Shown piece by piece: positions 41,199 through 63,768 of a DNA stretch of 64,000 nt (position 1 is its first letter; each line of letters begins with the position of its first letter). The notes below the pieces were generated by a model. It did not search any database and had not been told where the DNA came from. It saw only the letters and a list, made by a program, of their open reading frames with translations. The position numbers and the translations under genes are program-made. Origin of the DNA: Sinorhizobium medicae (GTDB lineage Bacteria > Pseudomonadota > Alphaproteobacteria > Rhizobiales > Rhizobiaceae); NCBI RefSeq assembly GCF_007827695.1, contig NZ_VITA01000001.1, positions 496,001-560,000 of the forward strand. The letters run 5' to 3'.

Positions 41199-41224
41199 GG
41201 AACTCCCGGCCCCCGCCCGCCGTT
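41199..41224 (+). promoter_or_regulatory. RpoE2-like promoter
   Basis: GGAAC-N17-CGTT, 48 bp before the start of the 132-residue coiled-coil membrane protein. Confidence 0.65.
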
Positions 41225-41272
41225 TCCGGGTAGCTATCCCTGACGAGTTAGGACCCAGACACGGAGGAACAT

Positions 41273-41671
41273 ATGGCACAGGAGAAGCGACTCGGTTCCA
41301 CAATACCGCGGGGGGTCGTCGATACGAAGAACGGATCGGTCGGCGTTCCGAATCAAGCGAGCATCGAAGAGGAGGTCAGGTCGCTGCGCGAGCAGGTGAA
41401 TGCGCTGAGCGAAAGGCTCTCGGAGCTGGGCATTTCTTCCGGTAGGGCGATCGCCAATACGGGCCGAAGAGCGGGCGAAATGGCAAGGGAGCACCCCGCC
41501 TGGACGGCACTCGCAGTGATCGGCCTGCTCGGGCTGCTCGCTGCAGGCACGAGCCGTCCTTACTGGCATTCGCGGAGTTCGTCGCGGATTGAAGATCTGA
41601 TCGCCGATATCGAGGACCGGCTGAGCGATCTGAAGAGCCGTTACTGGTCGAATAGCTGGCGGCCCTGGTAA
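41273..41671 (+). CDS. Small membrane-anchored coiled-coil protein, DUF883-like
   Basis: A 132-residue protein. A coiled coil at about residues 30-52 (EEEVRSLREQVNALSERLSE) leads to an amphipathic stretch and a single transmembrane segment (TALAVIGLLGLLAAG). The end is short, with IEDLIADIEDRLSDLKSRYW. The arrangement recalls YqjD/DUF883-type inner-membrane proteins that respond to stress. The RpoE2-like promoter fits this. Confidence 0.7.
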   Translation: MAQEKRLGSTIPRGVVDTKNGSVGVPNQASIEEEVRSLREQVNALSERLSELGISSGRAIANTGRRAGEMAREHPAWTALAVIGLLGLLAAGTSRPYWHSRSSSRIEDLIADIEDRLSDLKSRYWSNSWRPW

Positions 41672-41718
41672 GATCACGGCCTTCCTGCCGGGGACGGTGT
41701 GCCTCCGGCAGGGCAGGG

Positions 41719-42123
41719 TCAGAATCGTTCCTTGGTTTCTTCCGCCGGAAGGCTGGGACCGCTGTCATCCCAGGGAAGCCGGCTCTCAACGCCGTAATGA
41801 TCTGTTGGAGCCAGGCCTTCCGGCCAGTCGAGTGTCCCGGCCGTGAACCGCAGCCTGGGGTCGTCGTCGTATTGAAGAAACAGCGGACTACCGCAATCGG
41901 GGCAAAACCCTCTGACCGCGATCGGGGACGAGCGGTAGAGGGCGGGTGGAGTGTTCCAATGCACTGATGACCCCTCCGTTCGCACGAGGACGGTGAACGG
42001 CCCGCCCGTCGCGCGCCTGCACATGGAGCAGTGGCAGTATCCGACGTGCGAAGGCGGCCCCTTGAAGGCATAGCGCCGCTTGCCGCAAAGGCAGCCACCT
42101 GTAATGAGGTTTGCGCCAGGCAT
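41719..42123 (-). CDS. GFA family glutathione/zinc protein
   Basis: A 134-residue protein with the GFA zinc-binding cysteines: CLCGKRRY, GYCHCSMCRRATG and GFCPDCGSPLF. This fold was named after the glutathione-dependent formaldehyde-activating enzyme Gfa, but most members are of unknown function. It starts 4 bp after the stop of the 17M-like gene and so is the second gene of that stress operon. The upstream ATG at 42171 would overlap the preceding gene; the shorter start is preferred. Confidence 0.86.
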   Translation of the reverse strand: MPGANLITGGCLCGKRRYAFKGPPSHVGYCHCSMCRRATGGPFTVLVRTEGSSVHWNTPPALYRSSPIAVRGFCPDCGSPLFLQYDDDPRLRFTAGTLDWPEGLAPTDHYGVESRLPWDDSGPSLPAEETKERF

Positions 42124-42127
42124 GACT

Positions 42128-42892
42128 TTACTCTGAGTTTCTGCCTGATGGCGAAAGTCCATTGCTGCCATGTGGCCGGTCTCCATCCCAACCCACGCGA
42201 TCCTTTCCAAGCCTGTCGCCCCCGGCTCGCTCCGTCGCCGGTGCACCGTAGGATGGCTCGCCGAAAGGCTGTCCTTCGTCACGGTTGGTGAAGGATGAAG
42301 CATCACCGGAACTCTCCACCGGCTTTGCACCCGCTTCGCTCCGGTATGCCCGGACGGTCGCGGAACTTCGGGCATGGTCTCGCGTGATGCTGGGGCTGGC
42401 GTGATCACCGGCGGCGGCGCCAAAGGTTTCTTCCGTCGGAGCCCTTGTATCCATCCCCGGCGAAGTACTGCGCTGCCAGCCGCTCCAGCCGTCGCGCCGC
42501 CAGAGGTCGACGCGCTCGTCCAGGTCGATCGTTCCCTCGTCGTCGAGGATGTCGCGCGCAGTCATGTAGCCGGCATCGTCGATCCCGGAAACCGTGACGA
42601 GATAACCACCCCGGCGCAGGCCTTCGGCGTAGATCTCGCGATCCTCGCTGGGAAAGAAGAAGTTCTCCAGCGCGGTCCAGATGCCGTCCGGTGCGGCGGG
42701 CGCAGAGCCCTCGCCGCTGCCGAGGACCAGTTGAACAGTGGCAGCACCGAGTTCCGCTTCGCGGAGGCGCTCGACGGTGGCCTCGGCTTGCGAGCGGTTG
42801 TCGAACAAGGCGGTTATCGTGCTGGTCCGCGCGGCGCCTTCGGCCGAGGGGCCGACGCCCGGCGCTCCATATTCGCTATCGGTATCGGACAT
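42128..42892 (-). CDS. General stress protein 17M-like
   Basis: A 254-residue protein. The N-terminal 110 residues carry the 17M-like fold (ITALFDNRSQAEATVERL, then GGYLVTVSGIDDAGYMTARDIL). The C-terminal 130 residues are hydrophilic, low-complexity and probably disordered. Function is unknown beyond stress association. ATG 42892 has AGGAGAAAGG upstream, and an RpoE2-like promoter lies 45 bp further. It forms an operon with the GFA gene. Confidence 0.84.
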   Translation of the reverse strand: MSDTDSEYGAPGVGPSAEGAARTSTITALFDNRSQAEATVERLREAELGAATVQLVLGSGEGSAPAAPDGIWTALENFFFPSEDREIYAEGLRRGGYLVTVSGIDDAGYMTARDILDDEGTIDLDERVDLWRRDGWSGWQRSTSPGMDTRAPTEETFGAAAGDHASPSITRDHARSSATVRAYRSEAGAKPVESSGDASSFTNRDEGQPFGEPSYGAPATERAGGDRLGKDRVGWDGDRPHGSNGLSPSGRNSE

Positions 42893-42936
42893 CAGACCTT
42901 TCTCCTGTCTGGGTACTTTCAGGTGACGGGAAGGCA

Positions 42937-42961
42937 AACCCGCGCCCCCGTCGAATGTTCC
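42937..42961 (-). promoter_or_regulatory. RpoE2-like promoter (minus strand)
   Basis: On the minus strand GGAAC-N16-GGTT, 45 bp before the 17M-like gene. It is divergent from the site at 42997, only 35 bp away. Confidence 0.6.
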
Positions 42962-42996
42962 AGACGCAGCGTCGATCGAACCGCGTCCTTCGCCGA

Positions 42997-43021
42997 GGAA
43001 CCGATCGCTTCCCCGCTTGTT
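42997..43021 (+). promoter_or_regulatory. RpoE2-like promoter
   Basis: GGAAC-N16-TGTT, 71 bp before the KGG-like small protein gene. Confidence 0.6.
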
Positions 43022-43092
43022 CGGCCCCAGTGTCAGACCCTGCCGGTACAGTGGATGTGCCGACCGATCGAGCAGAGCGGATGGAGGCCGAT

Positions 43093-43278
43093 ATGGACGA
43101 GAAAACGGACAGAGCGAAGAACAAGGGAGAAAGCGGCACCGCCAAGAAAAAACAGCCGGGTCACGTGGGCGGCGACGAGGCCCGCAAGGCGCAGGAGTGG
43201 GGCGGCGGCTCCAAAGCCTCGAAAGGGGGCGTCAGTGACGGAGACAAGCGCAACCCGAACTCGAGTGCGAAAAGCTAA
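43093..43278 (+). CDS. KGG-like small stress protein
   Basis: A 61-residue, very hydrophilic lysine/glycine-rich protein (MDEKTDRAKNKGESGTAKKK, GGSKASKGGVSDGDKRNPNS), reminiscent of the KGG/stress-induced proteins of other bacteria. GGAGG lies five bases before ATG 43093; the in-frame ATG at 43081 overlaps that site and is less likely. The RpoE2-like promoter supports a stress role. Confidence 0.7.
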   Translation: MDEKTDRAKNKGESGTAKKKQPGHVGGDEARKAQEWGGGSKASKGGVSDGDKRNPNSSAKS

Positions 43279-43315
43279 GCTGTCTGAGGTCTTCCCGCCG
43301 GTCGCGACATTGGCG

Positions 43316-43894
43316 TCAAACCACGAAGTCGAAGCGGCCGAATTTGCCGTCCTCCGTGTCGCGCAGGTCGAGCAGCAGCGAAGGAGAATAAAGGCGGTCG
43401 CCGTCGTTCTGGGGCTCGTTGGGAAAGAAGAGCTGCGTCGTCAGGACGGGGGCGCCGGGACGGCGCACGCGGAAGTGATAATGGCGGGTTCGTCCGGGGT
43501 AGAGTGCCGGAATGATGGTGCTGAACCACCAGCGTCCCCGTTCATCGGTCACCTGGTGTCCACGTAGCCTGTAGCCGCGCGTATCGTAGGCGCCGGTCTC
43601 GTCCGCATGCCAGATTTCGACGAGGCTGCGGGCGATCGGACGGCAATTTCCGTCGAGAACGTAGCCGGCGATGGTGATGCGTTCGCCGTCCGGGGCGTCG
43701 CCGGAAAGGTCGTGCCTGAGCGGCGCATCGGGCTTGTAGAACGGACCCGCCGTAAGTGCGGGCGTCAGGTCGTCATCGTCGCGGCAAGCGGGCGTGAGCG
43801 GTAGTGTCGGTTGCTGAGCCGCGGCTCGATTGCAAACGGGCAGCGCGGGCACGGCGAGAAATGCGGTCAGAAGGGAGCGTCGGGTAGGCAGCAT
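43316..43894 (-). CDS. Exported intradiol ring-cleavage dioxygenase-like protein
   Basis: A 192-residue protein with a twin-arginine-like signal (MLPTRRSLLTAFLAVPALP). The intradiol dioxygenase core follows: IAGYVLDGNCRPIARSLVEIW, then GRTRHYHFRVRRPG with the Fe(III) ligands Tyr-x-His, and an upstream tyrosine in RGYRLRG. Export of such an enzyme is seen in a subfamily of unknown substrate. ATG 43894 has GGAGG upstream. Confidence 0.83.
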   Translation of the reverse strand: MLPTRRSLLTAFLAVPALPVCNRAAAQQPTLPLTPACRDDDDLTPALTAGPFYKPDAPLRHDLSGDAPDGERITIAGYVLDGNCRPIARSLVEIWHADETGAYDTRGYRLRGHQVTDERGRWWFSTIIPALYPGRTRHYHFRVRRPGAPVLTTQLFFPNEPQNDGDRLYSPSLLLDLRDTEDGKFGRFDFVV

Positions 43895-44144
43895 AAAAGC
43901 CTCCTTCCTTGCCGTGCGCGGGTTTCGCAGGAACGCCGCGTTGGACGTAGGCCAGTACGCAGAATATAGCACTTTCCATCCGATGGCAGCGGGCCCAGGC
44001 GCGATGGATGCCGGTTTTGTTCGATCTCTGGCGGTTCGCGCTCAACGCAGGCATGATTGACGCTGGCGGCGATTGCGCTGTCGTCCCGGGCCCGCGCCCC
44101 TGCAGCGGGGCCCGGATGCAACCAGAACCCCTCAGGAGGAAACC

Positions 44145-44354
44145 GTGGGCGAGCACGTCTATAAGAAGATCGAGCTGATCGGTAGCTCACCGAACTCGAT
44201 AACCGAAGCCATCGATGGCGCGATTTCGCGTGCTTCGAAAACCACGCGGAATCTCGACTGGTTCGAAGTGGACGAGATTCGCGGTCAGATCGTAAACGGG
44301 AAGGTCGCGCATTATCAGGTGGTGATGAAGGTGGGCTTCCGGATCGACGAATAA
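44145..44354 (+). CDS. Dodecin
   Basis: A 69-residue flavin-binding protein that assembles as a dodecamer and buffers flavins. The whole sequence matches the family (VYKKIELIGSSPNSITEAID, LDWFEVDEIRG with the flavin-stacking tryptophan, HYQVVMKVGFRI). The GTG start has CAGGAGGAA upstream. No RpoE2-like box was found before it. Confidence 0.93.
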   Translation: MGEHVYKKIELIGSSPNSITEAIDGAISRASKTTRNLDWFEVDEIRGQIVNGKVAHYQVVMKVGFRIDE

Positions 44355-44365
44355 GGGTGCGGTTC

Positions 44366-45595
44366 CTACTCTTCTGCCGGCAGCACCGTGTTGCGCGACT
44401 GGACTTCGCTCCGGACCGCATTCATCACGAATATGCCGAACAGGCAGTAGATGCCCATGCCTGCGATTTGCCACGAATAGGGGACGCCGGCGTCTATTAG
44501 AAAGCCCGTGATGCCGGGCCCCATCGCCGTCGCGAACACCATCAGCGCGACGATCACGGCACGTATGCTGCCGAGATGCCGCACGCCGTAAATCTCCGGC
44601 CAGAGTGCTCCGAACAGGGTGGTGGACGAGCCGAGCGACGCCCCTAGCAGCGCCATGAAGGCGAAGGCGCTCCATTGAGAATCGATGAATGCGAGGGTGA
44701 AGCAAGCGGCGGCGAGCGGCACGAGATAGAAAGGCAGGATGTCGACGGCCGAATATCTGTCGATCAGGTAACCCGTGACCAACGAAAACACCACCGTCAG
44801 GGTAGACGACACGACAAAAGCTCCGGCGAACACCTCGAGCGACCAGTGGCGAAGCTCGACCAGGTAGACCTGGTGGAAAAAGATGGTCGTGGCGATGAAA
44901 CCCGGCGCAAGCACGCCGGAGAGCGCGAACCAGAAAACCGGATCGCGCAGGACCTCCGAGCGTGTCCAATGCCGCGCCGCGAACCGGCGCTCGGGCCCGT
45001 CGCTGGCACTTGGCATTCGCTCGGTCCGTATGAGCACATAGATCGCCGGGAGACCGACGAGGAGAATGGCGGCAGCCGAAAAAAGCCAGGTCTGCCGCCA
45101 GCCTATAAGTGGCGCGAGTGCAACGAAGACGAGGGGGAACAACGCCTCGCCCGCCTGGTTGCCGAGGCTCGCGATTGAAACCGCCCTTCCGCGCTGTGCG
45201 GAAAACCATCGGCCCATCGCTGTCATGGCGTTGTGCGTCATCATGCCCTGACCGAACAGCCGCAGCAGATAGATCGTTGCAAAGAGCCAGAGCCAGGTCG
45301 AGGCATAGGCCATCGAGAGCGTTGCGAAGGCCAGCAGCGGCAGCGTCAGCAGAAGGACATGACAGGCCCGGATGTGGTCCACGATCCGTCCCAACTGGGG
45401 AAGGGTCAGGGCGCTCAAAAGCGTGGCCGCCATGTAGAGAGTACCGAAGCTGCCGTGGCTGAGGCCATACTCTCGGCGGATGTCACCCGCAGAGAGCGAT
45501 ATGAAGAAGGTCTGACCGAAGGAAGAGAAGAAGCAAAGCAGAAACCCGCCTGCGAGCCATCGGCAATTTCGGACAAGGAAGGTCGAAAACGGCAT
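44366..45595 (-). CDS. Major facilitator superfamily transporter
   Basis: A 409-residue membrane protein with twelve hydrophobic segments. MFS signatures include LPQLGRIVDHIR between TM2 and TM3 and a related loop GYLIDRYSAVDILPF in the second half. The substrate is not evident; it resembles oxalate/formate-like and monocarboxylate carriers in length. It is convergent with dodecin, with only 11 bp between stops. Confidence 0.87.
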   Translation of the reverse strand: MPFSTFLVRNCRWLAGGFLLCFFSSFGQTFFISLSAGDIRREYGLSHGSFGTLYMAATLLSALTLPQLGRIVDHIRACHVLLLTLPLLAFATLSMAYASTWLWLFATIYLLRLFGQGMMTHNAMTAMGRWFSAQRGRAVSIASLGNQAGEALFPLVFVALAPLIGWRQTWLFSAAAILLVGLPAIYVLIRTERMPSASDGPERRFAARHWTRSEVLRDPVFWFALSGVLAPGFIATTIFFHQVYLVELRHWSLEVFAGAFVVSSTLTVVFSLVTGYLIDRYSAVDILPFYLVPLAAACFTLAFIDSQWSAFAFMALLGASLGSSTTLFGALWPEIYGVRHLGSIRAVIVALMVFATAMGPGITGFLIDAGVPYSWQIAGMGIYCLFGIFVMNAVRSEVQSRNTVLPAEE

Positions 45596-45720
45596 GAGGG
45601 CTCTCGACTGCAGGGTAGGAAGAGAGAGGGGATCGTGAGGATATACGCGATCCGAACAGGCGGAAGGGATGAGAACTTATAACCCCGGGATGATCCGATT
45701 CAACCCGGGGACGGCGAAAT

Positions 45721-47214: not shown

Positions 47215-47431
47215 TGATTTTCTTCGCAATAGTAGCACACCCGGCCGGCGGACTATCCGGCTCGCTACGGTTTGATGCTGTTGCGTTGTCTGGCGGATCG
47301 GCGGCCAGAAGAGCCACCCGGGGTTTCACCGGGTCCGGGGTGAGTTCCCGCTTTATAAGCATTGGCTGGGCGCGGCGCAATGAAGAATTGTGCGCTGCCG
47401 CATCTCGCGGCAGCGCCGTCTTCAGCACGCC

Positions 47432-48849: not shown

Positions 48850-48878
48850 CCTTCTCCCCGTTTCTGACGGGGAGAAGG
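48850..48878. repeat. Palindromic hairpin element
   Basis: CCTTCTCCCCGT (48850-48861) and ACGGGGAGAAGG (48867-48878) form a perfect 12-bp stem with a 5-base loop, in the 390-bp gap between the MFS gene and the sugar-binding gene. This sequence type is common between rhizobial genes. Nothing else is seen in 48623-49012. Confidence 0.6.
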
Positions 48879-50135: not shown

Positions 50136-50993
50136 TCACAGGAAAGGCTTTCCGCCGGTCACCGCGATGGTCGCGCCGGATACGTAACTCGACATCGGAT
50201 CCGCGAGCATTACGTAGGCCGAGGCGAGTTCTACCGGCTGCCCCGGACGTTTCATCGGCACCTGCTTGCCGAAGTTGGCGACGCTATCCTCGGGCATGGT
50301 GGAGGGGATCAGCGGGGTCCAGATCGGACCGGGCGCTACGACATTCACTCTTATCCCGCGCTCGGCCAGCATCTGCGCGAGACCGGCACTGAAATTGTGG
50401 ATCGCGCCTTTCGTCGTGGCATAGGCAAGCAGGATCGGGTTCGGGACGTCGGCATTGATGGAAGCTGTATTGATGATGACGCTGCCCTTCTTCATGTGCG
50501 GCACGGCTGCCTTGGTCAGGTAGAACATCGCGTGCATGTTCACCCGGAATGTCAGCTCCCATTCCTCGTCGCTTATATCCTCGATGTTCTTGAAAGAGGC
50601 CTGGTGGGCCGCGTTGTTGACGAGAATATCGACACCGCCGAGTTCCCGGACCGCCGTTTCGACGATCCGCCGGCAATGGTCGGAAGATTGGATGTCGCCC
50701 GCGGCGAGGACTGCCTTGCGGCCCGCTTCCTCCACCAGGGCCTTGGTGGCCATGGCGTCTTCATGCTCGCTCAGATAGCTGATAAGGACATCCGCTCCCT
50801 CCCGGGCGAAGGCGAGCGCCACGGCTCTGCCGATACCGCTGTCCCCGCCGGTGATGATGGCTCTCTTGTCTCTCAAGCGTCCGGAGCCCTGGTAAGAGTT
50901 CTCACCGTGGTCGGGAAGCGGCTGCATCTGGTCGGTGGTGCCAGGCATTTCCTGCTTTTGGCGGGGGAAGGGAGGCTGCGGAAATCTTTCCAT
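50136..50993 (-). CDS. Short-chain dehydrogenase (YghA-like)
   Basis: A 285-residue SDR oxidoreductase. A hydrophilic N-terminal extension (about 40 residues) precedes the Rossmann motif TGGDSGIGRAV; NNAA is in ILVNNAAHQ and the catalytic YxxxK is YATTKGA. Length and extension match the YghA/YdaD general-stress group. ATG 50993 is preferred over GTG 50999 for spacing to AAGGAG. An RpoE2-like promoter lies upstream on the minus strand. Confidence 0.9.
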   Translation of the reverse strand: MERFPQPPFPRQKQEMPGTTDQMQPLPDHGENSYQGSGRLRDKRAIITGGDSGIGRAVALAFAREGADVLISYLSEHEDAMATKALVEEAGRKAVLAAGDIQSSDHCRRIVETAVRELGGVDILVNNAAHQASFKNIEDISDEEWELTFRVNMHAMFYLTKAAVPHMKKGSVIINTASINADVPNPILLAYATTKGAIHNFSAGLAQMLAERGIRVNVVAPGPIWTPLIPSTMPEDSVANFGKQVPMKRPGQPVELASAYVMLADPMSSYVSGATIAVTGGKPFL

Positions 50994-51085: not shown

Positions 51086-51111
51086 AACTCAGGCAGACGA
51101 CCCTTTGTTCC
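51086..51111 (-). promoter_or_regulatory. RpoE2-like promoter (minus strand)
   Basis: On the minus strand GGAAC-N17-AGTT, about 93 bp before the SDR gene; divergent from the site at 51141. Confidence 0.5.
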
Positions 51112-51140: not shown

Positions 51141-51165
51141 GGAACTTCGTCCAAGGCTTCACGTT
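51141..51165 (+). promoter_or_regulatory. RpoE2-like promoter
   Basis: GGAAC-N16-CGTT, an exact fit to the consensus, 40 bp before the small hydrophilic protein gene at 51206. Confidence 0.68.
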
Positions 51166-51205
51166 GCCCCCACTGACCCGAGGAATTGTGCAGCAGGAGA
51201 GCATG

Positions 51206-51448
51206 ATGGAGAAGACCAAGCGCCAGATGCCGGACCCTTTGGATGTCAAGCCCGATGAACGGCCTGTCGAAAACGATAGCGACCTGCATCCGGAGACCGG
51301 AAAGCCCCCTCTTGAACCGGACGACATCACGAATGCCAAGGCCGCGCGGGAGGCGGCGCGCCTGAAGAGGGACGAGTACATCGTCAAATCGGATCTCGAG
51401 GATGCCGATCAACGCAATCCCCTGCCCGACATGAAGGACCAGGAATGA
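51206..51448 (+). CDS. Small hydrophilic protein, hypothetical
   Basis: An 80-residue, strongly charged protein (MEKTKRQMPDPLDVKPDERP; AAREAARLKRDEYIVKSDLE) with no hydrophobic segment, probably disordered. I recognise no family. AGGAGA lies five to six bases before ATG 51206 (ATG 51203 is too close). It heads a likely stress operon with the next two genes. Confidence 0.68.
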   Translation: MEKTKRQMPDPLDVKPDERPVENDSDLHPETGKPPLEPDDITNAKAAREAARLKRDEYIVKSDLEDADQRNPLPDMKDQE

Positions 51449-51493: not shown

Positions 51494-51685
51494 ATGAAAA
51501 CGCCAAAGGAAGGGGCACCCGGCACGACCGAGCAGTCGCCCCGCTGGGAAGGACCGAAGGAGACACGCCCGAGAGGCTATCTCCCCGCCAAGGACGACCC
51601 GGAACGCGACCGCGACGCCGTCGGCGAAAACCTGAAGGATCCGCATCGTGGCAAGCTGTCGGATGCGGGTAAGACGAAGCGCTAG
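51494..51685 (+). CDS. Small hydrophilic protein, hypothetical
   Basis: A 63-residue charged protein (MKTPKEGAPGTTEQSPRWEG; KDDPERDRDAVGENLKDPH), without transmembrane or signal sequence. GGAG is six bases upstream of ATG 51494. It lies 45 bp after the previous small gene and 75 bp before the SDR gene. Function unknown. Confidence 0.65.
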   Translation: MKTPKEGAPGTTEQSPRWEGPKETRPRGYLPAKDDPERDRDAVGENLKDPHRGKLSDAGKTKR

Positions 51686-52908: not shown

Positions 52909-54567
52909 ATGGCGATCACCCGGAATGACGCGACTTTGCGTGCGTATCGTCCCGCCAAGGAATTTGCCGGGGCGGCGCGTGAATGGTTGTTGCGTACCGA
53001 CCCGGAACGCCTGATTTGCCTGGGTCGCGTGATCACCGCAGTCTTTGCGATACTGGCGATCTATCTCGATCCCACCCGTCCGAACTCGATGCTTTACGAG
53101 TCTCGTCTTGTTCTCGGCCTCTACCTTCTCCTCGCGGTTGCCCTGGTGTTTTTTCCACTGCGGTTTTCGTTCGTCAGCCCCGTGCACCTGCTGATCCACG
53201 GCGTCGACGCCGCCGTCGTCGGTTGGCTGACCTTTCTGACGAACGAACTGGCGAGCCCGTTCTTCTCTATTCTGCCTTTCGTGATCCTTGCCATGACGAT
53301 GCGCTGGGGGCTCAAGGGTGCCTCGCTGGGGGCGCTGATCGCGCTGATCGTTCAGCTCGTGGTGGGGCTTCCCGATCTCCTGGATGGGGACGCCGAGCTC
53401 AACATATTCATCATGCGTTCGATCTATTTTGTGCTTATCGCGGCGACGCTCGGCTATTTCGGGGCGTATCGGGAACGAAGCCGGCAGCGCCTTGCGCAGC
53501 TCGCGCAATGGCCGTCTGGCGCGATCGGCGAGGACCGCCTATCCTGGTTGAGCATCGTCCTGCAGCATGCTTCCGGCGTTCTGGGAGATGCGCATCTGCT
53601 CGTCATCTGGCGCGAACAGGAGTTCGAGTCCGGATGCGCCGCATTCTGGACGAGTGGTCGGCTCCAATTGGCTGACCTGAGGGATCCTGAATTCTGGCGG
53701 CGCCATGATCCCGATGGCTGCGACGAACGCCATTCGAGGAGCGGTGAGGCCCTGAACGGCCTTTTCGCCGATCTGCCCCAGATCCACGCGAATGCCGGCC
53801 GGCCAAATTGCAAGGTGGTTTCCGCGGCCTTTTCGAGCCTCCGTTACCGGGGCCGCGTTTTCGTTATAAGCTACGCAAATTCAACCGACGACATGAAAGA
53901 CCTGACTCAGATCATCGCAACGCGCGTCGGGACGGAGCTCGAGCGTGTCGCTCTCATCCAGGCTGCCCGTGCCGAAGGGCGAATGCGACTCGCTCGCGAC
54001 CTGCATGACAGCGTGCTTCAGAATCTCACGGCCGCGCGCCTCAAACTGAAGCTCATCGGTGAAGCTTTCCCCGATGGCGCAAGGCAGAAGCTGATGGAGG
54101 TGGGTTCGCTCATTCTCGAGCAACAGCAATGCGTGCGCAAATTCGTCGATGAGAACCGGCCCGGAGAGGAGGGCAATCTCGCGAGGCTCGATCAGGACCT
54201 GCCGGAATTTCTCGACCTTCTGCGAATGCAGTGGAGTTGCAGCATCGACGTTTCGATCGGATCGCCTGGAATGATGGTCCCGCGATGGATGCTTTTCGAG
54301 ATAATGCAGCTGATTTCCGAGGCTGTCGCCAATGCAGTGCGCCATGGACGAGCCACAGTGGTGCGGATCGGCTTTATCGGGAGCGCAGGCCTTCTGGAAC
54401 TGGATATTTCCGATAACGGCACAGGAATAGCGGATGGACTCACGTCCAAGAAGCCCTTCTCGCTGTCGCAACGTATTGCGGAACTCGGCGGCAGTCTGGC
54501 AATTTGCCGGAGTTCGCCGGGGCTCGGTCTGACGATCACGCTGCCGCTAAAGCCGGGGCTCAGATGA
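52909..54567 (+). CDS. Membrane sensor histidine kinase (NarX/DesK-type)
   Basis: A 552-residue kinase. Five to six N-terminal transmembrane segments (about residues 35-175) are followed by a GAF-like cytosolic region. The HisKA_3 dimerisation domain has the phospho-accepting His366 in RLARDLHDSVLQNLTAARL, and the HATPase domain contains AVANAVRHG and SDNGTGIADG (D502). It phosphorylates the LuxR-type regulator encoded next, whose start overlaps its stop. The signal is unknown. Confidence 0.9.
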   Translation: MAITRNDATLRAYRPAKEFAGAAREWLLRTDPERLICLGRVITAVFAILAIYLDPTRPNSMLYESRLVLGLYLLLAVALVFFPLRFSFVSPVHLLIHGVDAAVVGWLTFLTNELASPFFSILPFVILAMTMRWGLKGASLGALIALIVQLVVGLPDLLDGDAELNIFIMRSIYFVLIAATLGYFGAYRERSRQRLAQLAQWPSGAIGEDRLSWLSIVLQHASGVLGDAHLLVIWREQEFESGCAAFWTSGRLQLADLRDPEFWRRHDPDGCDERHSRSGEALNGLFADLPQIHANAGRPNCKVVSAAFSSLRYRGRVFVISYANSTDDMKDLTQIIATRVGTELERVALIQAARAEGRMRLARDLHDSVLQNLTAARLKLKLIGEAFPDGARQKLMEVGSLILEQQQCVRKFVDENRPGEEGNLARLDQDLPEFLDLLRMQWSCSIDVSIGSPGMMVPRWMLFEIMQLISEAVANAVRHGRATVVRIGFIGSAGLLELDISDNGTGIADGLTSKKPFSLSQRIAELGGSLAICRSSPGLGLTITLPLKPGLR

Positions 54568-55857: not shown

Positions 55858-58800
55858 ATGGCAGTCATCAACGGCACTTCTGGAAACAATATTCTCATCG
55901 GCACGGGTTCGGACGACAGCCTCAATGGTTTAGCCGGCGACGACCTGCTTCAGGGACTTGGAGGCGCAGACATCATCAATGGCGGCGCGGGTGTGGACAC
56001 GGCCGACTATCGCGAGAAGGCGGCCCCAATCGTAGTCACATTGACCGGTGCGACGGCGGCGACCGTCTTTATCAATGGCGTCGCGGAGGACACGCTTGCC
56101 AACGTAGAGAACGTTTACGGGGGCTCCGGCGACGACTTTATCACCGGCGACGCGCTGAACAATCTCTTCCGGGGAGGCGGCGGAAACGACGTGCTCGACG
56201 GCGGCGGCGGGAATGATACGGCCGACTATACCGACAAGACAGCCTCCGTCGTGGTCACGCTGGCCGGGGCGACACCTGTGACAGTTTTCGTGAACGGCAT
56301 CGCCGAGGACATGATCAGCAACTTCGAAAACGTCTATGGCGGTTCGGGCGACGACATCCTAACGGGCGATGATCGGGACAACATTCTTCGCGGTGAGGTA
56401 GGAAACGACATTCTCAATGGCGGCATTGGCGCCGATTCCCTGTTCGGTGGCGAGGGCAACGATACCGTCGATGGCGGCAACGGGGTCGACACCTTCGACC
56501 TGCGCGAAAAGACATCCTCCGTCCTCGTGCAGCTCAATGGTGCGAATGGAGCTACAGTCTTCGTCGGCGGCGTTGCGGAGGATACGATCCGCAACGTCGA
56601 GAACATCGTAGGTGGATCGGCAGGCGATACGCTTACCGGCGATGCCGCCGCCAACAAGCTCTCGGGTGCGCGCGGCAACGACTGGCTCATGGGCGGCAGC
56701 GGTGCCGACATACTGGACGGCGGCGAGGACAGCGATACGGCGGACTACAGCGACAAGCAGGCTGCCATCGTCGTGGCGCTGAATGGCGGCAATCCCGTCA
56801 CAGTGACAGTCGGCGGCCTTGCCGAGGACTCGATCGCCAAGATCGAAAACATCGTCGGGGGTTCGGGAGACGATACGCTCAGCGGCGATGCCGCTGCCAA
56901 CACGTTTCGCGGTGGTCTTGGCGCCGACGCGCTTGACGGCGGCTCCGGCAGCGATACCGCGGACTTCAGCGACAAGGCGCAATCCGTCGTGCTTGCCCTC
57001 AACGGAGCGATCGATGCCGTTGCGACCGTCGGCGGAACGGCGGAGGACTCGGTCCGAAACATCGAAAACATCATCGGCGGTGCGGGAAACGATCAGCTCA
57101 CGGGCGATGCCGCCGCCAATATGTTCCGTGGCGGCCTCGGCGCCGATGTGCTGGATGGCGCTGCCGGCAGCGACACGGCGGACTTCAGCGACAAGACGTC
57201 ATCGCTTGTCGTAACTCTGGCCGGCGCGAGCCCGGCAACGGTCCTCGTCGGCGGCATCGCGGAGGATACGCTGCGCAACATCGAGAACATCATCGGCGGT
57301 TCGGGCAACGACGTGTTCGTTGGCGACGGCTTGCAGAACGTGTTCGATGGCGGGGCGGGTACCGACACGGCCGACTATTCGGCCTCGGCGAAGGCGATCG
57401 CTGTAACGCTCAACGGCGCCATTGACGCGAGGGTGTTCATAGGCAACGCGGCCGAGGACACGTTGCGCAACGTCGAAAGCATCACTGGAAGCGCCCTGGC
57501 GGATGTGATCACCGGCGATGCGCTGGCAAACAGCCTCCTCGGGGGCGGCGGCGCCGACCTGCTAAAGGGGGGCGGCGGCCAGGACGTTGTGGATGGCGGC
57601 AGCGGATCAGACACCATAGACTTCGGCGACAAGACCGCTGCCGTCGTCCTGACCCTTGCGGGTGTGGCTAATACGACAGCCACTGTCGGCGGGGTGGCCG
57701 AGGACACGGTCCGCAATATCGAGAACATCTTCGGAGGCGCCGGCGCCGACGTGCTGACAGGCGACGGCAACAGCAACACAATCCGCGGCGGGGCCGGGGC
57801 AGACGGCCTGGACGGCGGCGCGGGGGTCGATACGGCCGATTATCGGGACAAGGTGACGTCGGTTGTCGTCACGCTCAGTGGCGCGAATGCCGCGCTTGTC
57901 AAGGTGGGCGGCCTTAACGAAGATACGATCCGCAACTTCGAAAACGTTGCAGGCGGTTCGGCCGGCGACACGCTTGTCGGCGACGACCTGGCCAATGTGC
58001 TGCTTGGCAATGACGGTGCCGATACGCTGAAAGGCGGCTTGGGCAGTGACGTGCTGGATGGCGGCAATGGCATCGACACTGCGGATTACCTCGAGAAAGC
58101 CGACGCGATCTCCGTCACGCTCAACGGGACCACGAACGCGACGGTCTTGGTCGGCGGAGTTGCGGAAGACGTCATTCGCGGTGTAGAAAACATATTGGCG
58201 GGGTCCGGTGCCGACACACTTGTCGGCGATGGCGCGAGCAACACGTTTCGTGGAGCGCTCGGCGCTGACTTCATCGATGGCGGGGCGGGGTCCGATACGG
58301 CCGATTATCGCGAGAAGGCGGCGGCTGTCGATGTGACCCTCTTCGGCGCCGGTGACAGCTTCGTCTTCGTCGGCGGGGTCGCGGAAGACACAATCCGAAA
58401 CATTGAAAACGTATTCGGCGGCAAGGGCAACGATACGCTGACGGGCGACGACTCCGCCAACACCCTCAATGGCAATGACGGCAAGGATTTGCTTACCGGC
58501 GGCGGCGGAGCGGACATTCTTGACGGTGGGGCGGCCTCCGACACGGCGAACTACCGCGACAAGAGTGCATCGGTTTCCGTCACCCTCAACGGTGCCGCCT
58601 CCACGGCTGTCATGGTCGGCGGGGTGGCCGAGGATACGGTCCGCAATATCGAGAACGTCTGGGGCGGGACCGGCAATGACAGCCTGAGCGGCGACGGCAA
58701 TGCAAATCTGCTGTCGGGCGGCGGCGGAAGCGACATGCTGTCCGGCGGCGCGGGGGCGGATATTTTCCAGTTCGACTTCGCTTTGGGAGCGAGCAATGTC

Positions 58801-59076
58801 GACATGGTTCTGGATTTTACCGCCGGAGACCGGCTCTTTCTGTCGAAGAGCGTTTTCACCAGCCTGAGCGGCGGTTCGCTGGCAAGCAACCAGTTCTACG
58901 CGGCGGCCGGCGCAACGGAGGCGCAAGGCGTGAACCAAAGAGTCGTTTACGATACGACGACGGGCGCGCTCTACTATGATGCTGACGGCAACCTTTCGGG
59001 GCATACGGCCGTGCAGTTTGCAGTCCTCTCTACACAGCCGGGACTGACTGCAGGAGATTTCGTGCTCGTCGTGTGA
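55858..59076 (+). CDS. RTX-type calcium-binding protein with twelve modular repeats
   Basis: A 1072-residue acidic protein, presumably secreted by a type I system. After 47 residues of RTX nonapeptides (NGTSGNNILIGTGSDD), twelve modules follow, each starting TADYxxKxxxVxVTL and containing GGVAEDTIRNIENIxGGSG before one to three G-G-x-G-x-D turns. Module lengths are 73, 91, 82, 73, 73, 64, 82, 73, 82, 73 and 82, differing by multiples of nine. The last module leads into a C-terminal region (DMVLDFTAGDRLFL) of the type-I secretion signal kind, ending FVLVV. No adjacent T1SS genes were found. Such proteins are adhesins or matrix proteins in rhizobia. Confidence 0.9.
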   Translation: MAVINGTSGNNILIGTGSDDSLNGLAGDDLLQGLGGADIINGGAGVDTADYREKAAPIVVTLTGATAATVFINGVAEDTLANVENVYGGSGDDFITGDALNNLFRGGGGNDVLDGGGGNDTADYTDKTASVVVTLAGATPVTVFVNGIAEDMISNFENVYGGSGDDILTGDDRDNILRGEVGNDILNGGIGADSLFGGEGNDTVDGGNGVDTFDLREKTSSVLVQLNGANGATVFVGGVAEDTIRNVENIVGGSAGDTLTGDAAANKLSGARGNDWLMGGSGADILDGGEDSDTADYSDKQAAIVVALNGGNPVTVTVGGLAEDSIAKIENIVGGSGDDTLSGDAAANTFRGGLGADALDGGSGSDTADFSDKAQSVVLALNGAIDAVATVGGTAEDSVRNIENIIGGAGNDQLTGDAAANMFRGGLGADVLDGAAGSDTADFSDKTSSLVVTLAGASPATVLVGGIAEDTLRNIENIIGGSGNDVFVGDGLQNVFDGGAGTDTADYSASAKAIAVTLNGAIDARVFIGNAAEDTLRNVESITGSALADVITGDALANSLLGGGGADLLKGGGGQDVVDGGSGSDTIDFGDKTAAVVLTLAGVANTTATVGGVAEDTVRNIENIFGGAGADVLTGDGNSNTIRGGAGADGLDGGAGVDTADYRDKVTSVVVTLSGANAALVKVGGLNEDTIRNFENVAGGSAGDTLVGDDLANVLLGNDGADTLKGGLGSDVLDGGNGIDTADYLEKADAISVTLNGTTNATVLVGGVAEDVIRGVENILAGSGADTLVGDGASNTFRGALGADFIDGGAGSDTADYREKAAAVDVTLFGAGDSFVFVGGVAEDTIRNIENVFGGKGNDTLTGDDSANTLNGNDGKDLLTGGGGADILDGGAASDTANYRDKSASVSVTLNGAASTAVMVGGVAEDTVRNIENVWGGTGNDSLSGDGNANLLSGGGGSDMLSGGAGADIFQFDFALGASNVDMVLDFTAGDRLFLSKSVFTSLSGGSLASNQFYAAAGATEAQGVNQRVVYDTTTGALYYDADGNLSGHTAVQFAVLSTQPGLTAGDFVLVV

Positions 59077-59141
59077 TCGCCTTGGAGCGAACCCGGAGCC
59101 CGCTTCGTGCGGGCATCCGGCTTCGATCACCTCCGATCCTG

Positions 59142-59166
59142 GGAACACCTGCCCCAGCTCCGTGTT
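59142..59166 (+). promoter_or_regulatory. RpoE2-like promoter
   Basis: GGAAC-N16-TGTT, 72 bp before the alcohol dehydrogenase gene. Confidence 0.55.
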
Positions 59167-59238
59167 TGGAGGAATGTGAAGGACGAGCAGAGCGCCGTCC
59201 TTTTCTTTTTCTTCCAGCGATTGACAAGGAGCTCCGAC

Positions 59239-60408
59239 GTGAAAGCGCTGACATGGCACGGCAAGGGCGATATCCGTTGCGAGAGCGTGCCCGATCCTGA
59301 AATCAAGGATGAACGAGACGTCATCATCAAGGTCACGGCCTGTGCGATTTGCGGATCGGACGTTCATATTTTCCACGGCCTCATCCCATCCATGGAGAAT
59401 GGCGACGTTCTGGGCCATGAAACCATGGGAGAGGTCGTGGAAGTCGGCAGCGGCGCCTCCAATCTGAAGGTTGGCGACCGGGTGGTCGTACCGTTTACCA
59501 TTTCCTGCGGGGAGTGCTTTTTCTGCCGGAAGGGCTTCTATTCGGCGTGCGAGCGGACCAACCCCGACCGGGAGAAGGCAGCGAAGCTCTGGGGCAATTC
59601 ACCCGCCGGTCTGTTCGGCTACTCCCATCTCCTCGGAGGCTATAGCGGCGGACAGGCGGAGTATCTCCGGGTGCCGCACGCCGATGTCGGACCGATCAAG
59701 GTCCCGGACGAGCTGACGGACGAGCAGGCGCTCTTCCTCTCCGATATCTTTCCAACCGGCTATATGGCGGCGGAGTTCTGCGACATCGAGCCTGCCCAGA
59801 CGATAGCCGTCTGGGGTTGCGGTCCGGTGGGACAGATGGCGATCCGTTCGGCATTCCTGCTCGGCGCCGAGCGGGTCATCGCGATAGACACGATTGCGGA
59901 GCGGCTGAGACTTGCAGAGACCGCCGGCGCCGTGACGCTCGATTACATAGCGGAGGACATTTACGACCGTATCATGGAGATCACGCACGGCAGGGGGGCC
60001 GATGCCTGTATCGATGCGGTGGGGACGGAGGCTGACAGCCGTGCAAGCCTGGGTTCCCTCGTCGATCGCGTGAAGGTCGCAACGTTCATGGGAACGGACC
60101 GGCCACATGTGCTTCGACAGGCGATCCATTGCTGCAGGAACTTCGGCACTGTTTCCGTCGTCGGTGTCTATGGCGGCTATCTTGATAAGGTCCCGTTCGG
60201 TTCGGCGATCAACCGCGGGCTGACGTTCAGAATGGCTCAGACGCCTGTGCAGCGCTATCTGCCGGCGCTCCTCGACCGCATAGAAAAGGGCGAGATCGAT
60301 CCCTCATTCGTGGTGACCCACCGCGGCGGGCTCGCCGACGGCCCCGAACTCTACAAGACTTTCGCGGAAAGGAAGGACGGCTGCATCAAGGTGGTCCTCA
60401 GACCGTGA
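59239..60408 (+). CDS. Zinc-dependent alcohol dehydrogenase (formaldehyde dehydrogenase-like MDR)
   Basis: A 389-residue medium-chain dehydrogenase. Catalytic-zinc residues are in [12 protein letters not shown] and [12 protein letters not shown], the structural zinc lobe is [15 protein letters not shown], and the Rossmann motif is GCGPVGQMA. The long insert and length place it with glutathione-independent formaldehyde dehydrogenase-like enzymes. GTG 59239 has AAGGAG seven bases upstream. An RpoE2-like site precedes it, so it may serve during stress. Confidence 0.9.
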
Positions 60409-60451
60409 CGGCTCGCCGGCGGGCGGAAAGGCTCGGCCGGGTGATGACGCA

Positions 60452-61162
60452 TCAGAGTTCGAGTATGGCGTAGGGTCTGCCCGTCGGCTTTTCGACATGG
60501 GCGGCGACATTGAAGACCGGAGCCCCGCCGGGTGTCTTTCCTTGATAGGCGCCTTTGTGGGCATGGCCGTGGACGACGGCGCTCACCTTGAAACGGTCGA
60601 TGGTCTCCGCAAGACGCGAGGACCCGAGAAACGGATAGATCTCCTTGGGCTCTCCGTCGACGGTTTCGGGAATGGGCGAGTAGTGCAACACGACGAGCGC
60701 GCGCTCTGCCCTGGTCGCCCTCAATGCGTTTTCGAGCCGGATCGCTTCGTCGACGCTCGTTCCGACCATGGTCTTTATCGCCGCTTCGCCGAAGGCACCC
60801 AGCATGTGCCGCCCGAAGCCGCCGATGAAACCCTTCGTTCCGCAGAAGCCGACGCCCGCGATTTCGATGCTTTGACCATCGAGGAGATGCACACCCGCTT
60901 TCACAAGAATGGACGAGACCTCCTCCACGGCGTCGCATTGATGGTCATGATTGCCGAGCACAGCGACGACCGGAATGGTGCAGGATTTCATATCCGCGGC
61001 GAGCAGTTCTGCTTCCGCAGGCTTTCCCAGGTCCGTCAGGTCGCCGGCAATGACAAGCACATCCGCCGCGCGCGAGACTTCCGCAAACAGGTCCGTGTAG
61101 GAGACCGATCGGTCCTCCTTTACATGCAGGTCCGCCACGGCGGCCACCTTCAGCTTGCTCAT
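60452..61162 (-). CDS. Metallophosphoesterase
   Basis: A 236-residue calcineurin-like phosphoesterase with all metal motifs: ADLHVKED (DxH), VIAGDLTDLG (GD), LGNHDHQCD (GNHD) and VVHGHAHKG (GHxH). The substrate is unknown. Its start overlaps the stop of the nucleotidyltransferase gene (ATGA-type), so the two are translationally coupled and probably act together. Confidence 0.9.
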   Translation of the reverse strand: MSKLKVAAVADLHVKEDRSVSYTDLFAEVSRAADVLVIAGDLTDLGKPAEAELLAADMKSCTIPVVAVLGNHDHQCDAVEEVSSILVKAGVHLLDGQSIEIAGVGFCGTKGFIGGFGRHMLGAFGEAAIKTMVGTSVDEAIRLENALRATRAERALVVLHYSPIPETVDGEPKEIYPFLGSSRLAETIDRFKVSAVVHGHAHKGAYQGKTPGGAPVFNVAAHVEKPTGRPYAILEL

Positions 61163-61977
61163 CAGTCCTTATCCTCAGTTTCCGCGCTGAGGTCGGAGTC
61201 GCCTCCGACGTCAGCGAAACCCCATTCCTTCACATCGATTTCATAGTCGGGTCGAGAGTACATCCTGCCGCGGCAGATCTTCGTCTGGGGCAGTGGCAGG
61301 TCTCTTTGTGCCGCCAGCCGGCTCAAAAGCTCGTCCACCAGCCAGAGCGGAACCTTGTCCCGCTCCGAGGGATAGATCCAGCGGAAGTTCAGGATGTGAA
61401 TGAGCAGGACCTCCCAATGCGCTTCCATGTAACCGAGCAATCTTGTCCAATCGATCCGGTCATAGGCCTTGAGGATCACATGCGCGACGTCGGCACCGTC
61501 GTAGCGGTGGCGAAGCTGAATGAACGACTTGGACCAGACGAGTTCCGTCGGCGCTACGACCTGGCAGATGGAGGGGCCGATCTCCACCGGCAGAGCATTG
61601 GCGAACCAGGAGTCGCTGACCATCATGGTTCCGTTCGGTGATGAGAAGATCACGTCGAAGAAGGATTTGCCCTTGAAAACCTTTCCAAGCCATCGGTCGT
61701 CCTCGATTTCGACGGCATATCCGAGCGCCTTGAAATGATTGAGGATCCGGATGTAGTCACCGGGTTTGCAGAAGACGTCGAGATCCTTTGTCGGCCGCGA
61801 TATTCCGGTATGTGCACTCACGGCAAAAGTCCCCGCGATCAGAAACGGAATTCCCGACCGGCCCAGCTCCGCGATCGCCTCGGCGACGAAGGCCTCGGCT
61901 TCCTCATCCACGAGCTGCGGCAGCGCGAGCGGCTCTGAGGGGCCTTCCGATGGGCTGTGCGGGGTCATTGATGTCAT
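61162..61977 (-). CDS. Nucleotidyltransferase-fold protein
   Basis: A 271-residue protein. Residues 40-75 contain FLIAGTFAVSAHTGISRPTK followed by DLDVF, matching the GG/S...DxD pattern of pol-beta-type nucleotidyltransferases related to the antitoxin/MNT group. The rest (LGKVFKGKSFFDVIF, ELVWSKSFIQLRHRYDGAD) resembles family members of unknown substrate. It is coupled to a metallophosphoesterase and preceded by an RpoE2-like promoter. A nucleotide-signal or protein-modification pair is possible but unproven. Confidence 0.78.
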   Translation of the reverse strand: MTSMTPHSPSEGPSEPLALPQLVDEEAEAFVAEAIAELGRSGIPFLIAGTFAVSAHTGISRPTKDLDVFCKPGDYIRILNHFKALGYAVEIEDDRWLGKVFKGKSFFDVIFSSPNGTMMVSDSWFANALPVEIGPSICQVVAPTELVWSKSFIQLRHRYDGADVAHVILKAYDRIDWTRLLGYMEAHWEVLLIHILNFRWIYPSERDKVPLWLVDELLSRLAAQRDLPLPQTKICRGRMYSRPDYEIDVKEWGFADVGGDSDLSAETEDKD

Positions 61978-62010
61978 ACTGGCCTTCCAAATGAACGGGA
62001 CTCTCGTGAC

Positions 62011-62035
62011 AACACGCCAGTCTTTCGGAAGTTCC
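62011..62035 (-). promoter_or_regulatory. RpoE2-like promoter (minus strand)
   Basis: On the minus strand GGAAC-N16-TGTT, 34 bp before the nucleotidyltransferase gene; divergent from the site at 62135. Confidence 0.55.
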
Positions 62036-62134
62036 GTTGGGGCAGAACGGGCGGCACGCCCTTCAACAACGCGGAATCACTCCTGCAAAATCCGCCGATC
62101 ATTCTGCGGCAATGCGCCCAGGTGCGAACGTGAT

Positions 62135-62160
62135 GGAACCGCCGGCGCGGTCGTGGCGTT
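62135..62160 (+). promoter_or_regulatory. RpoE2-like promoter
   Basis: GGAAC-N17-CGTT, 117 bp before the small protein gene at 62278. Confidence 0.58.
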
Positions 62161-62229
62161 TGTCTGGCAGCTATCGCATGAGTGCCCCGAGCCGAAGCGA
62201 AGGGCAAAACCAATAAGTAAATCAAATCG

Positions 62230-62268
62230 CTACAGCGACCGAGCGCGTCTGTCGATGCGCCGTTGTGG
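62230..62268. repeat. Degenerate CTACAGCG-type repeat
   Basis: The CTACAGCGA arm and inner GCGC...GCGC resemble the hairpin at 50057-50099; the 3' arm has decayed to CGTTGTGG. It ends at the ribosome site of the next gene. Confidence 0.45.
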
Positions 62269-62277
62269 GAGGAGCAT

Positions 62278-62517
62278 ATGCCTGTGATCAGCCCCACCGT
62301 TCATAGCCAGCAGATCAGCCGCGAGCTTGAATGTCAGCGTGCATTAGAGGATGAGTTCCTCGTCCTGACCGCCCTGGCCGAAGAGGCGGGCTGGTCATGG
62401 CAGGAAATCGCGCTCGCGATGATGGAGCTGACCGAGCAATATGTGGCGGCCATGCGCCCCGGTTCGGCGATGGAAGCTCGCTCGCTCCTGCGCATGCACT
62501 CCAAGAGCTTGCACTGA
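62278..62517 (+). CDS. Small hypothetical protein
   Basis: A 79-residue, mostly helical cytosolic protein (DEFLVLTALAEEAGWSWQEI; ALAMMELTEQYVAAMR). I recognise no family. GGAGG lies five bases before ATG 62278. An RpoE2-like promoter is upstream. Confidence 0.7.
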   Translation: MPVISPTVHSQQISRELECQRALEDEFLVLTALAEEAGWSWQEIALAMMELTEQYVAAMRPGSAMEARSLLRMHSKSLH

Positions 62518-62656
62518 CCGAGCCGGGTGGCGAGTGACCGGGGCTGGGTGCCCGTCACCGCCAAAACAGCGCGGAACTGCTCCAAAGTTTTGATTGCCTG
62601 CAATTCCGGGCGGCCCGCGGGCCGCCCTTTCACTTGTCCCCTCGTTCTGAATGCCG

Positions 62657-63290
62657 TCAGAACCTGACCCGCAGTCCGACGGTGCCCAGGGCATGGCTGT
62701 CGCCGAAGTCGGTAAGGCCGGTGGTGGCGCGTAGCTTGCCATAGCGTGCGTATTTGTCGTCGCCCCAATTATAGCTGCCGCCAAGGCCGATCTCGCCGGT
62801 CCTCGGGTTGGCTGTCGAGCGTCACCTCCGACATCCGGGCCCGCATACGGCCCGACATGTCGTGAATGACGTTGGCAATGCCATAGACCCCCATACGGCG
62901 TGTGTCGCCTTGCTGCCCCTGCCAGACATTCTCATAATCGATGCTCATGCCGATCCAGGCACGCAGGCTGTCGCCGTCATCGAGCGAGACACGGGCGGCA
63001 AACGGATCGGTGAAGTCGTCGAAATCGACCGAGGCGCAGCTCAACTGCGCCTGGGGCGTGAGCGCCCAGTTGTCGCCAATGGCGAAGCGCTGGCGGCTTC
63101 GAGAATCAAGCCATAGCCGAAGCCGTCATTGCCGCTGGCGAGATTGCCGAGAATGGCAGAAGGGAGATCGCTGGAGAACCAGCTCAGCCGGCCTGGACAT
63201 CGGCATAGAAGCCGCTCTGGCCATACCAGGTCAGCGCGCCCGTTGACCACCTTGGCCGGCCGCTGCCTACTCTGTAAAGCAAGCCTTGGA
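62657..63290 (-). pseudogene. Decayed autotransporter beta-domain
   Basis: Minus-strand fragments in three frames rebuild the end of an autotransporter barrel: LTWYGQSGFYADVQA, then WFSSDLPSAILGNLASGNDG, then RFAIGDNWALTPQAQLSCAS with VDFDDFTDPFAARVSLDDGD, then GEIGLGGSYNWGDDKYARYG and a terminal VGLRVRF before the stop at 62657. At least three frame changes (near 63200, 63100 and 62815) separate them, and no passenger domain remains in front. Confidence 0.8.
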
Positions 63291-63331
63291 TGAGGCACGC
63301 GGCGACTGGATTCTGCATTCAATGGGTCTGC

Positions 63332-63506
63332 TCTAAGTTACGGCGCCTCCAACCGCCAGGGCCAGCACGAGGAAGACGAGAAAAATGATGACTGCAATGT
63401 AGAACAATATCTTTGCGATCCCCGCCGTCGCGGCCGATATGCCGGAGAAGCCGAGAAACCCGGCGATCAACGAGATTACGAAAAAAATCAGAGCCCATTT
63501 CAGCAT
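63332..63506 (-). pseudogene. DUF1328 small membrane protein, frameshifted at an A8 tract
   Basis: The gene would encode 57 residues: MLKWALIFF, then [13 protein letters not shown] and [21 protein letters not shown], the DUF1328 signature with two transmembrane helices. The A-run at 63480-63487 has eight bases where seven are needed, so the frame shifts after residue 9 and the membrane protein is lost. AAAGGAAC precedes ATG 63506. A sequencing or assembly error in the homopolymer is equally possible. Confidence 0.78.
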
Positions 63507-63552
63507 GATTGTTCCTTTCGTTCAGCCCGGGCGGATTGTGGCCAATGGCGCC

Positions 63553-63699
63553 TTATCGGCTGCCCCTCTGCGGATCCTTCCCGGCCGACTGGCTGCTTTT
63601 CTTGACATCGTCCTTCTTCGCCTGGTCTCCTGCCCGATTTCCACCATGTGTCCCTTTCGAGCTCTTGGCGGCCTTGCCGTCCTTTGCATTCGTAGCCAT
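63553..63699 (-). CDS. 48-residue hydrophilic protein, hypothetical
   Basis: A lysine/glycine/serine-rich small protein (MATNAKDGKAAKSSKGTHGG; GDQAKKDDVKKSSQSAGKD), basic and likely disordered, similar in style to KGG-type stress proteins. GGAGGA is seven bases before ATG 63699. An RpoE2-like promoter lies 45 bp further upstream. Confidence 0.68.
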   Translation of the reverse strand: MATNAKDGKAAKSSKGTHGGNRAGDQAKKDDVKKSSQSAGKDPQRGSR

Positions 63700-63743
63700 T
63701 GCGCTTCCTCCAAACTGAAACCCAAACCTGCGGTCGCAGGTGC

Positions 63744-63768
63744 AACCGAGAAGGGGCGCGAATGTTCC
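63744..63768 (-). promoter_or_regulatory. RpoE2-like promoter (minus strand)
   Basis: On the minus strand GGAAC-N16-GGTT, 45 bp before the 48-residue protein gene. Confidence 0.58.

Follow-up and report, generated by a model that had tools for sequence, protein, structure and literature searches.

Do the GGAAC and TT words that precede many genes in one part of a Sinorhizobium medicae replicon mark promoters of the general-stress sigma factor RpoE2? The question was raised by a stretch of 64,000 nucleotides (the window: bases 496001-560000 of contig C1 in a genome of 6.53 Mb). Its 41-64 kb region shows up to 99.9% identity to S. medicae pSymB-type megaplasmids, an identity that assigns the window to such a megaplasmid. 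The collinear counterpart of this region lies at 73.9-94.8 kb of S. meliloti 1021 pSymB. Placement, spacing, clustering and conservation make it very probable that the region holds a dense cluster of genuine RpoE2 (EcfG, ECF15) promoters.

A first-pass annotation had listed ten GGAAC-N16/17-xxTT sites, nine of them between 41.2 and 63.8 kb and one at 19364, each near a gene start. All ten were recovered, and all are intergenic, 37-117 bp upstream of a start codon. An additional placed site, 63832(+), was absent from that list. Distances below are those between the TT and the start codon.

19364..19389, + strand: RpoE2-type promoter before hypothetical gene 19463(19448)-19978, 53 bp (motif search, placement, motif at the S. 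meliloti counterpart).
41199..41224, + strand: RpoE2-type promoter of a DUF883-like coiled-coil/transmembrane gene, 48 bp (corresponds to the SMb20065 promoter published for S. meliloti).
42937..42961, - strand: RpoE2-type promoter of a 17M-like/GFA pair, 44 bp (placement; without counterpart in S. meliloti 1021).
42997..43021, + strand: RpoE2-type promoter of a KGG-like small gene, 71 bp (kept in S. meliloti).
51086..51111, - strand: RpoE2-type promoter of an SDR gene, 92 bp (kept in S. meliloti).
51141..51165, + strand: RpoE2-type promoter of small hydrophilic genes, 37 bp (counterpart of the published SMb20074 promoter).
59142..59167, + strand: RpoE2-type promoter of an alcohol dehydrogenase, 72 bp when the start is taken from the annotation of the near-identical CP140910.1 (the start of the home-made gene caller is 9 bp away; kept in S. 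meliloti).
62011..62035, - strand: RpoE2-type promoter of a nucleotidyltransferase-metallophosphoesterase (NTase-MPE) pair, 42 bp (exact motif in related loci).
62135..62160, + strand: RpoE2-type promoter of a 79-aa gene, 117 bp (kept in S. meliloti).
63744..63768, - strand: RpoE2-type promoter of 48-aa/DUF1328 genes, 44 bp (kept in S. meliloti).
63832..63857, + strand: RpoE2-type promoter whose next + strand gene is the YflT/17M-type gene at 64092, 235 bp downstream (kept in S. meliloti).

GGAAC and GTT boxes were found in 11/11 of these sites, the base before TT being G in all, and C preceded GTT in 4/11. The three divergent pairs proposed earlier (42937/42997, 51086/51141 and 62011/62135) are real by coordinates and strand; 63744/63832 forms a fourth and two more lie beyond the window end. 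Two further placed matches in the window are at 3497 and 34161. The long leader at 63832-64092, behind a conserved site, could conceal a small RNA or a small gene.

Gene starts were taken from a home-made gene model trained on the same genome, with two small genes added from the CP140910.1 (PGAP) annotation. The window contained 26 motif rows with 23 distinct -35 boxes, compared with a mean of 10.7 and a largest value of 19 in 100 shuffles. Within 41-64 kb a site was counted as placed when it lay outside genes and ≤300 bp before a same-strand start. Ten of the 14 distinct GGAAC matches in this region were placed (the nine listed earlier and 63832), whereas 29 permuted -35 boxes gave 0.66 placed matches on average and 4 at most. 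The other four (45136, 49843, 54480 and 60816) were omitted from the first-pass annotation. Genome-scale placement scans covered 2.316 Mb, comprising the whole of C1 and parts of C2, C3, C4, C8 and C11. The placed fraction peaked at GGAAC-N17-GTT (48/103) and N18 (23/55), and each of the other 15 spacers tested gave 1-9 placed matches. The base before TT was G in 71/121 placed matches and in 87/408 unplaced matches. Scored in this way against controls, the motif was far commoner before genes than expected by chance.

For the cluster scan, in which placed sites lay ≤250 bp from a start, 97 of 444 GGAAC matches were placed. The densest 23-kb stretches held 13 (from window position 51086) and 11 (from C1:164.7 kb) of these, and the next held 5. 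When 97 gene starts were drawn at random in 5000 trials, no 23 kb contained more than 8. Cluster 1 passes the window end and reaches ∼73.5 kb. Restricted to GTT/ATT sites, cluster 1 (41-74 kb) had 16 for 33 genes and cluster 2 (C1:160-193 kb) 16 for 37, against 52 for 2020 genes in the rest of the scanned sequence; this per-cluster comparison is post hoc (the region was picked by the first-pass annotation), which the 23-kb random-placement scan is not. Of ten divergent pairs in the scanned sequence, the two clusters account for nine, and cluster 1 by itself for six. In cluster 2, the 10 of its 37 genes that were examined included alpha-amylase/CBM48 genes, a topoisomerase IB, a GST and a sigma factor gene. 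The promoter of the sigma factor gene, C1:190407, is closely similar to the published rpoE5 promoter in the available portion of PMC6180224, so the gene is probably rpoE5. Site C1:372292 likewise resembles the exsG promoter published there. A literature search found no title or abstract on clustering of such genes, and the word 'cluster' had 0 occurrences in the available portions of PMC3616915 and PMC6180224.

Fifteen sites (10 in the window, 5 beyond) were aligned with S. meliloti, presence of the motif there not being required. Site 73454 (beyond S. meliloti locus L011), 19364, 3497 and 34161 were left out. In 14 of the 15, all eight motif bases are kept (112/112), compared with 196/244 spacer and 490/700 flanking positions; with 42937 counted in, the values are 113/120, 201/261 and 509/750. 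By this alignment the cluster promoter boxes are better conserved than their spacers and flanks. For 19364, S. meliloti locus L233 has the motif too, as GGAAC..CGTT at 294, upstream of the corresponding gene.

Published work bears on two of the units directly. L011:5896 and L011:15325, the counterparts of sites 41199 and 51141, are identical to promoter sequences in the available portion of PMC6180224, where RpoE2 raised SMb20065 by 3.3 log2, SMb20074 by 4.6 and its operon partner SMb20075 by 3.7. The first-pass annotation took its consensus from S. meliloti RpoE2 work. PMC3616915, as far as its text was available, counts 76 genes that depend on rpoE2 and have a sigma-E2 motif where a transcription start site was mapped, and other genes of the cluster may already be listed among them. 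A literature search with the locus numbers of further cluster genes returned only PMC6180224 and PMC2780559, the available part of which contains SMb20065. Compared with the S. meliloti RpoE2 regulon as described in the accessible parts of PMC3616915 and PMC6180224, the S. medicae cluster has the same motif and spacing and the corresponding replicon and gene order, and two of its promoters match those published for SMb20065 and SMb20074; it differs in having an added 17M-like/GFA unit.

S. meliloti 1021 lacks that unit (41719-42961, the gene pair with its own RpoE2-type promoter) at the matching location. Such an absence would be expected if the region were a horizontally acquired stress island that had brought its own promoters. 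Most of the cluster aligns collinearly to S. meliloti pSymB as pieces that are 76-87% identical, and the GC of the window (0.620) equals that of the contig (0.618), leaving acquisition an unlikely explanation. The earlier description of a 'dispersed general-stress island' stands in part: RpoE2-regulon genes are concentrated here, but in one of two clusters, which passes the window end, and nothing in the GC values or the S. meliloti synteny indicates mobility (mobility genes were not searched for). The repABC replication genes of the megaplasmid are at 22876-26546, ∼15 kb from the stress cluster.

The genome encodes the regulators that such promoters would need. A NepR gene, identified by profile, is flanked by a PhyR-type gene on one side and by the gene of a 184-aa ECF sigma on the other; its neighbours match PhyR_sigma2/PhyR_sigma-like/Response_reg and Sigma70_r2/r4_2, and a divergent motif pair (C6:162924/162954) stands just before nepR. 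Both the PhyR-NepR-EcfG locus and GGAAC...GTT promoters are shared with the alphaproteobacterial EcfG general stress response. In a stressed cell PhyR (RsiB1), once phosphorylated, would bind NepR (RsiA1), and the freed RpoE2 would join core polymerase. The holoenzyme would then read GGAAC-N17/18-GTT before each unit, and neighbouring genes, often in back-to-back pairs, would be switched on together. The units other than the two with published counterparts would be expected to respond to RpoE2 in S. medicae as well, and the products of the cluster would presumably protect the cell.

These promoters might instead be served mainly by RpoE5 or by RpoE6 (of the ECF26 group), ECF sigmas whose specificity is similar. 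An rpoE5-like gene sits in the second cluster, and overexpression of RpoE6 raised SMb20065 and SMb20074 by 0.7 and 0.9 log2 (PMC6180224, available portion); the 3.3 and 4.6 log2 obtained with RpoE2 come from the same table. In the same portion of that paper RpoE5 overexpression had a single putative target, and the ECF26 consensus is GGAATA/GT, not GGAAC/GTT. It is very unlikely that RpoE5 or RpoE6, rather than RpoE2, is the main sigma factor here.

Several observations weigh against assigning the cluster to RpoE2. The permuted box CGGAA had 86 placed sites in the scanned 2.316 Mb, from 788 matches, against 97 from 444 for GGAAC. Raw whole-genome counts of the motif (209+181) were not far above those of a reversed-pattern control (149+158). 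The gene caller was home-made, and one of the two genes added by hand from the PGAP annotation renders site 63744 'placed'. In 80 related loci (L130-L209), from which all homologue tallies were taken, the motif preceded homologues of the alcohol dehydrogenase in only 4/15 cases, of the YflT gene in 3/12 and of the GFA gene in 1/7. Site 42937 scores 1/8 in S. meliloti 1021 because the 17M-like/GFA genes are missing at this place. Published RpoE2-dependent expression concerns two units, in their S. meliloti form, the S. medicae units themselves resting on sequence, and RpoE5 or RpoE6 may share some of these promoters with RpoE2. The raw counts, together with the four of 14 regional matches without promoter placement, would also suit chance matches, GGAAC and TT being short, the DNA GC-rich and a reader prone to pick those before genes. 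Raw whole-genome counts carry little information as a test, and the case is carried by placement, spacing and conservation. These, the clustering and the two counterparts with published RpoE2 dependence refute chance for the set and leave it next to no probability; single sites could still be chance matches. The RpoE2 reading is kept on these grounds.

The genes behind the promoters, apart from the NTase-MPE pair, are:

41273..41671, + strand: 132-aa coiled-coil and transmembrane protein, DUF883-like by eye (Pfam gave only sub-threshold DUF7310); RpoE2 dependence is published for SMb20065.
41719..42186, - strand: GFA-family protein (Pfam PF04828, matched by a longer version of this frame; so annotated in CP140910.1).
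42128..42892, - strand: 17M/YflT-related protein, no Pfam match of its own; a single BLASTP comparison to the product of the gene at 64092, which matches PF11181 above cut-off, gave E 3e-9.
43093..43278, + strand: 61-aa hydrophilic protein, KGG-like by eye, no Pfam match.
50136..50993, - strand: SDR oxidoreductase (Pfam PF13561/PF00106; CP140910.1 annotation); motif upstream of 9/14 matches in the related loci.
51203..51448, + strand: 81-aa hydrophilic protein, SMb20074-type; motif upstream of 6/6 homologues in the related loci.
51494..51685, + strand: 63-aa hydrophilic protein, SMb20075-type, in an operon with the 81-aa gene.
59239..60408, + strand: zinc-dependent alcohol dehydrogenase (CP140910.1 annotation).
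62278..62517, + strand: 79-aa hypothetical protein (CP140910.1 annotation); motif upstream of 3/3 homologues.
63333..63506, - strand: DUF1328 membrane protein (Pfam PF07043), probable second gene of its transcript.
63553..63699, - strand: 48-aa hydrophilic protein, KGG-like by eye (CP140910.1 annotation); motif upstream of 5/7 homologues.

Past the window end follow YflT, PCMT/Erythro_esteras, DUF892, Exo_endo_phos, LPG_synthase_TM (below cut-off), PLD and TPP-enzyme genes. A stress role had been proposed for the hypothetical genes; their membership of the regulon is supported, but a shared promoter shows the timing of expression and not function. The sensor kinase at 52909-54567 was considered as an input kinase of the general stress response and rejected: it is of HisKA_3 type and has no exact motif placed upstream, and the response regulator beside it carries a transcription-factor annotation. 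Between this two-component pair and the alcohol dehydrogenase lies a long RTX-type calcium-binding repeat protein with many internal repeats (55858-59076), annotated in CP140910.1 as two calcium-binding proteins.

The pair behind site 62011 consists of:

61162..61968, - strand: NTase, PF14907-like, first gene of the pair (profile, relatives, fold).
60452..61162, - strand: calcineurin-like MPE, second gene of the pair (Pfam PF00149; fold).

The two genes are adjacent in 80/80 related loci, and an exact GGAAC-N17/18-GTT precedes them in 74 of these and in 14/22 loci of a broader sample. With the exact promoter kept to this extent, the pair looks like a conserved stress-regulon module. The NTase itself scored 19.9 bits against PF14907 (cut-off 31.2); it is called PF14907-like because most of 120 relatives among the matches listed, 64-81% identical, carry a precomputed PF14907. 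A sequence search of solved structures gave no match to the NTase. Its structure model has a MenT1-like fold (PDB 8an5, 8an4) at 16% identity; the likeness is one of fold only, the NTase differing in its constant phosphoesterase neighbour and the stress-sigma promoter in front. A literature search found no NTase/phosphoesterase pair linked to the general stress response as an EcfG target. The available part of PMC5869019 contains one 'nucleotidyltransferase' and no 'metallophosphoesterase', and the available main texts of PMC3892343 and PMC6599016 contain neither 'nucleotidyl'/'nucleotidyltransferase' nor 'phosphoesterase'. A speculative and rather doubtful proposal is that the pair forms a stress-sigma-driven write/erase module, in which the NTase would, during general stress, add nucleotides to a tRNA end, a protein or a small molecule and the co-translated MPE would remove them. 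Two genomes (G408 and G431) have two NTase matches each (L226, L230, L231 and L232) with MPE matches beside them and no exact promoter motif; three of these NTase matches are only 46-47% identical, and the L226 copy has one internal stop.

A further arrangement of the motif was observed past the window end. A single self-complementary GGAAC-N17/18-GTTCC site (G000:C1:564885-564912, window coordinates 68885-68912) lies between divergent Exo_endo_phos and LPG_synthase_TM genes, the same 27-28 bp reading as an RpoE2 promoter on both strands; CC after GTT suffices to turn the consensus two-way. The site is kept in 10/10 loci with an Exo_endo_phos homologue (L130, L131, L137, L140, L143, L145, L147, L151, L158 and L167), and the LPG_synthase_TM gene was found in 8. 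The Exo_endo_phos, LPG_synthase_TM and PLD genes stand together at window coordinates 68148-71250, an arrangement that resembles E. coli ybhP-clsB-ybhN, with the difference that here the first two share one self-complementary RpoE2-type promoter. As a general class, self-complementary RpoE2-type promoters have mixed evidence and are recorded here as a side observation. The 80 loci contained 50 such sites against 3.9 expected from other spacers, and CC followed GTT in 100/573 N17/18 matches (each such site counted on both strands) against 78/787 at other spacers. Across 101 genomes of the family, 794 matches compared with 1044 for the reversed pattern, and in the scanned 2.316 Mb of this genome there was no excess (14/158 vs 102/1038). 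Self-complementary sites stood between divergent genes at no higher rate than one-way sites (23/50 vs 229/473), a comparison in which the caller missed LPG_synthase_TM genes and some sites were filed as tandem.

Most of the cluster fits the known RpoE2 stress regulon; new are the several uncharacterised genes tied to it, including the NTase-MPE pair. The claims do not extend to mobility, to gene function or to RpoE2 as sole reader of the promoters. In the part scanned, promoters of the regulon gather in two clusters on the same contig instead of being evenly spread, and one of these clusters contains an rpoE5-like gene. A defined set of uncharacterised genes is thereby placed in the general stress response, on comparative rather than single-genome evidence. 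The NTase-MPE pair is patchy but recurrent, and its stress promoter persists from genus to genus, so that the function of the pair can be tested directly; a write/erase module, if true, would give Hyphomicrobiales a reversible brake wired to RpoE2.

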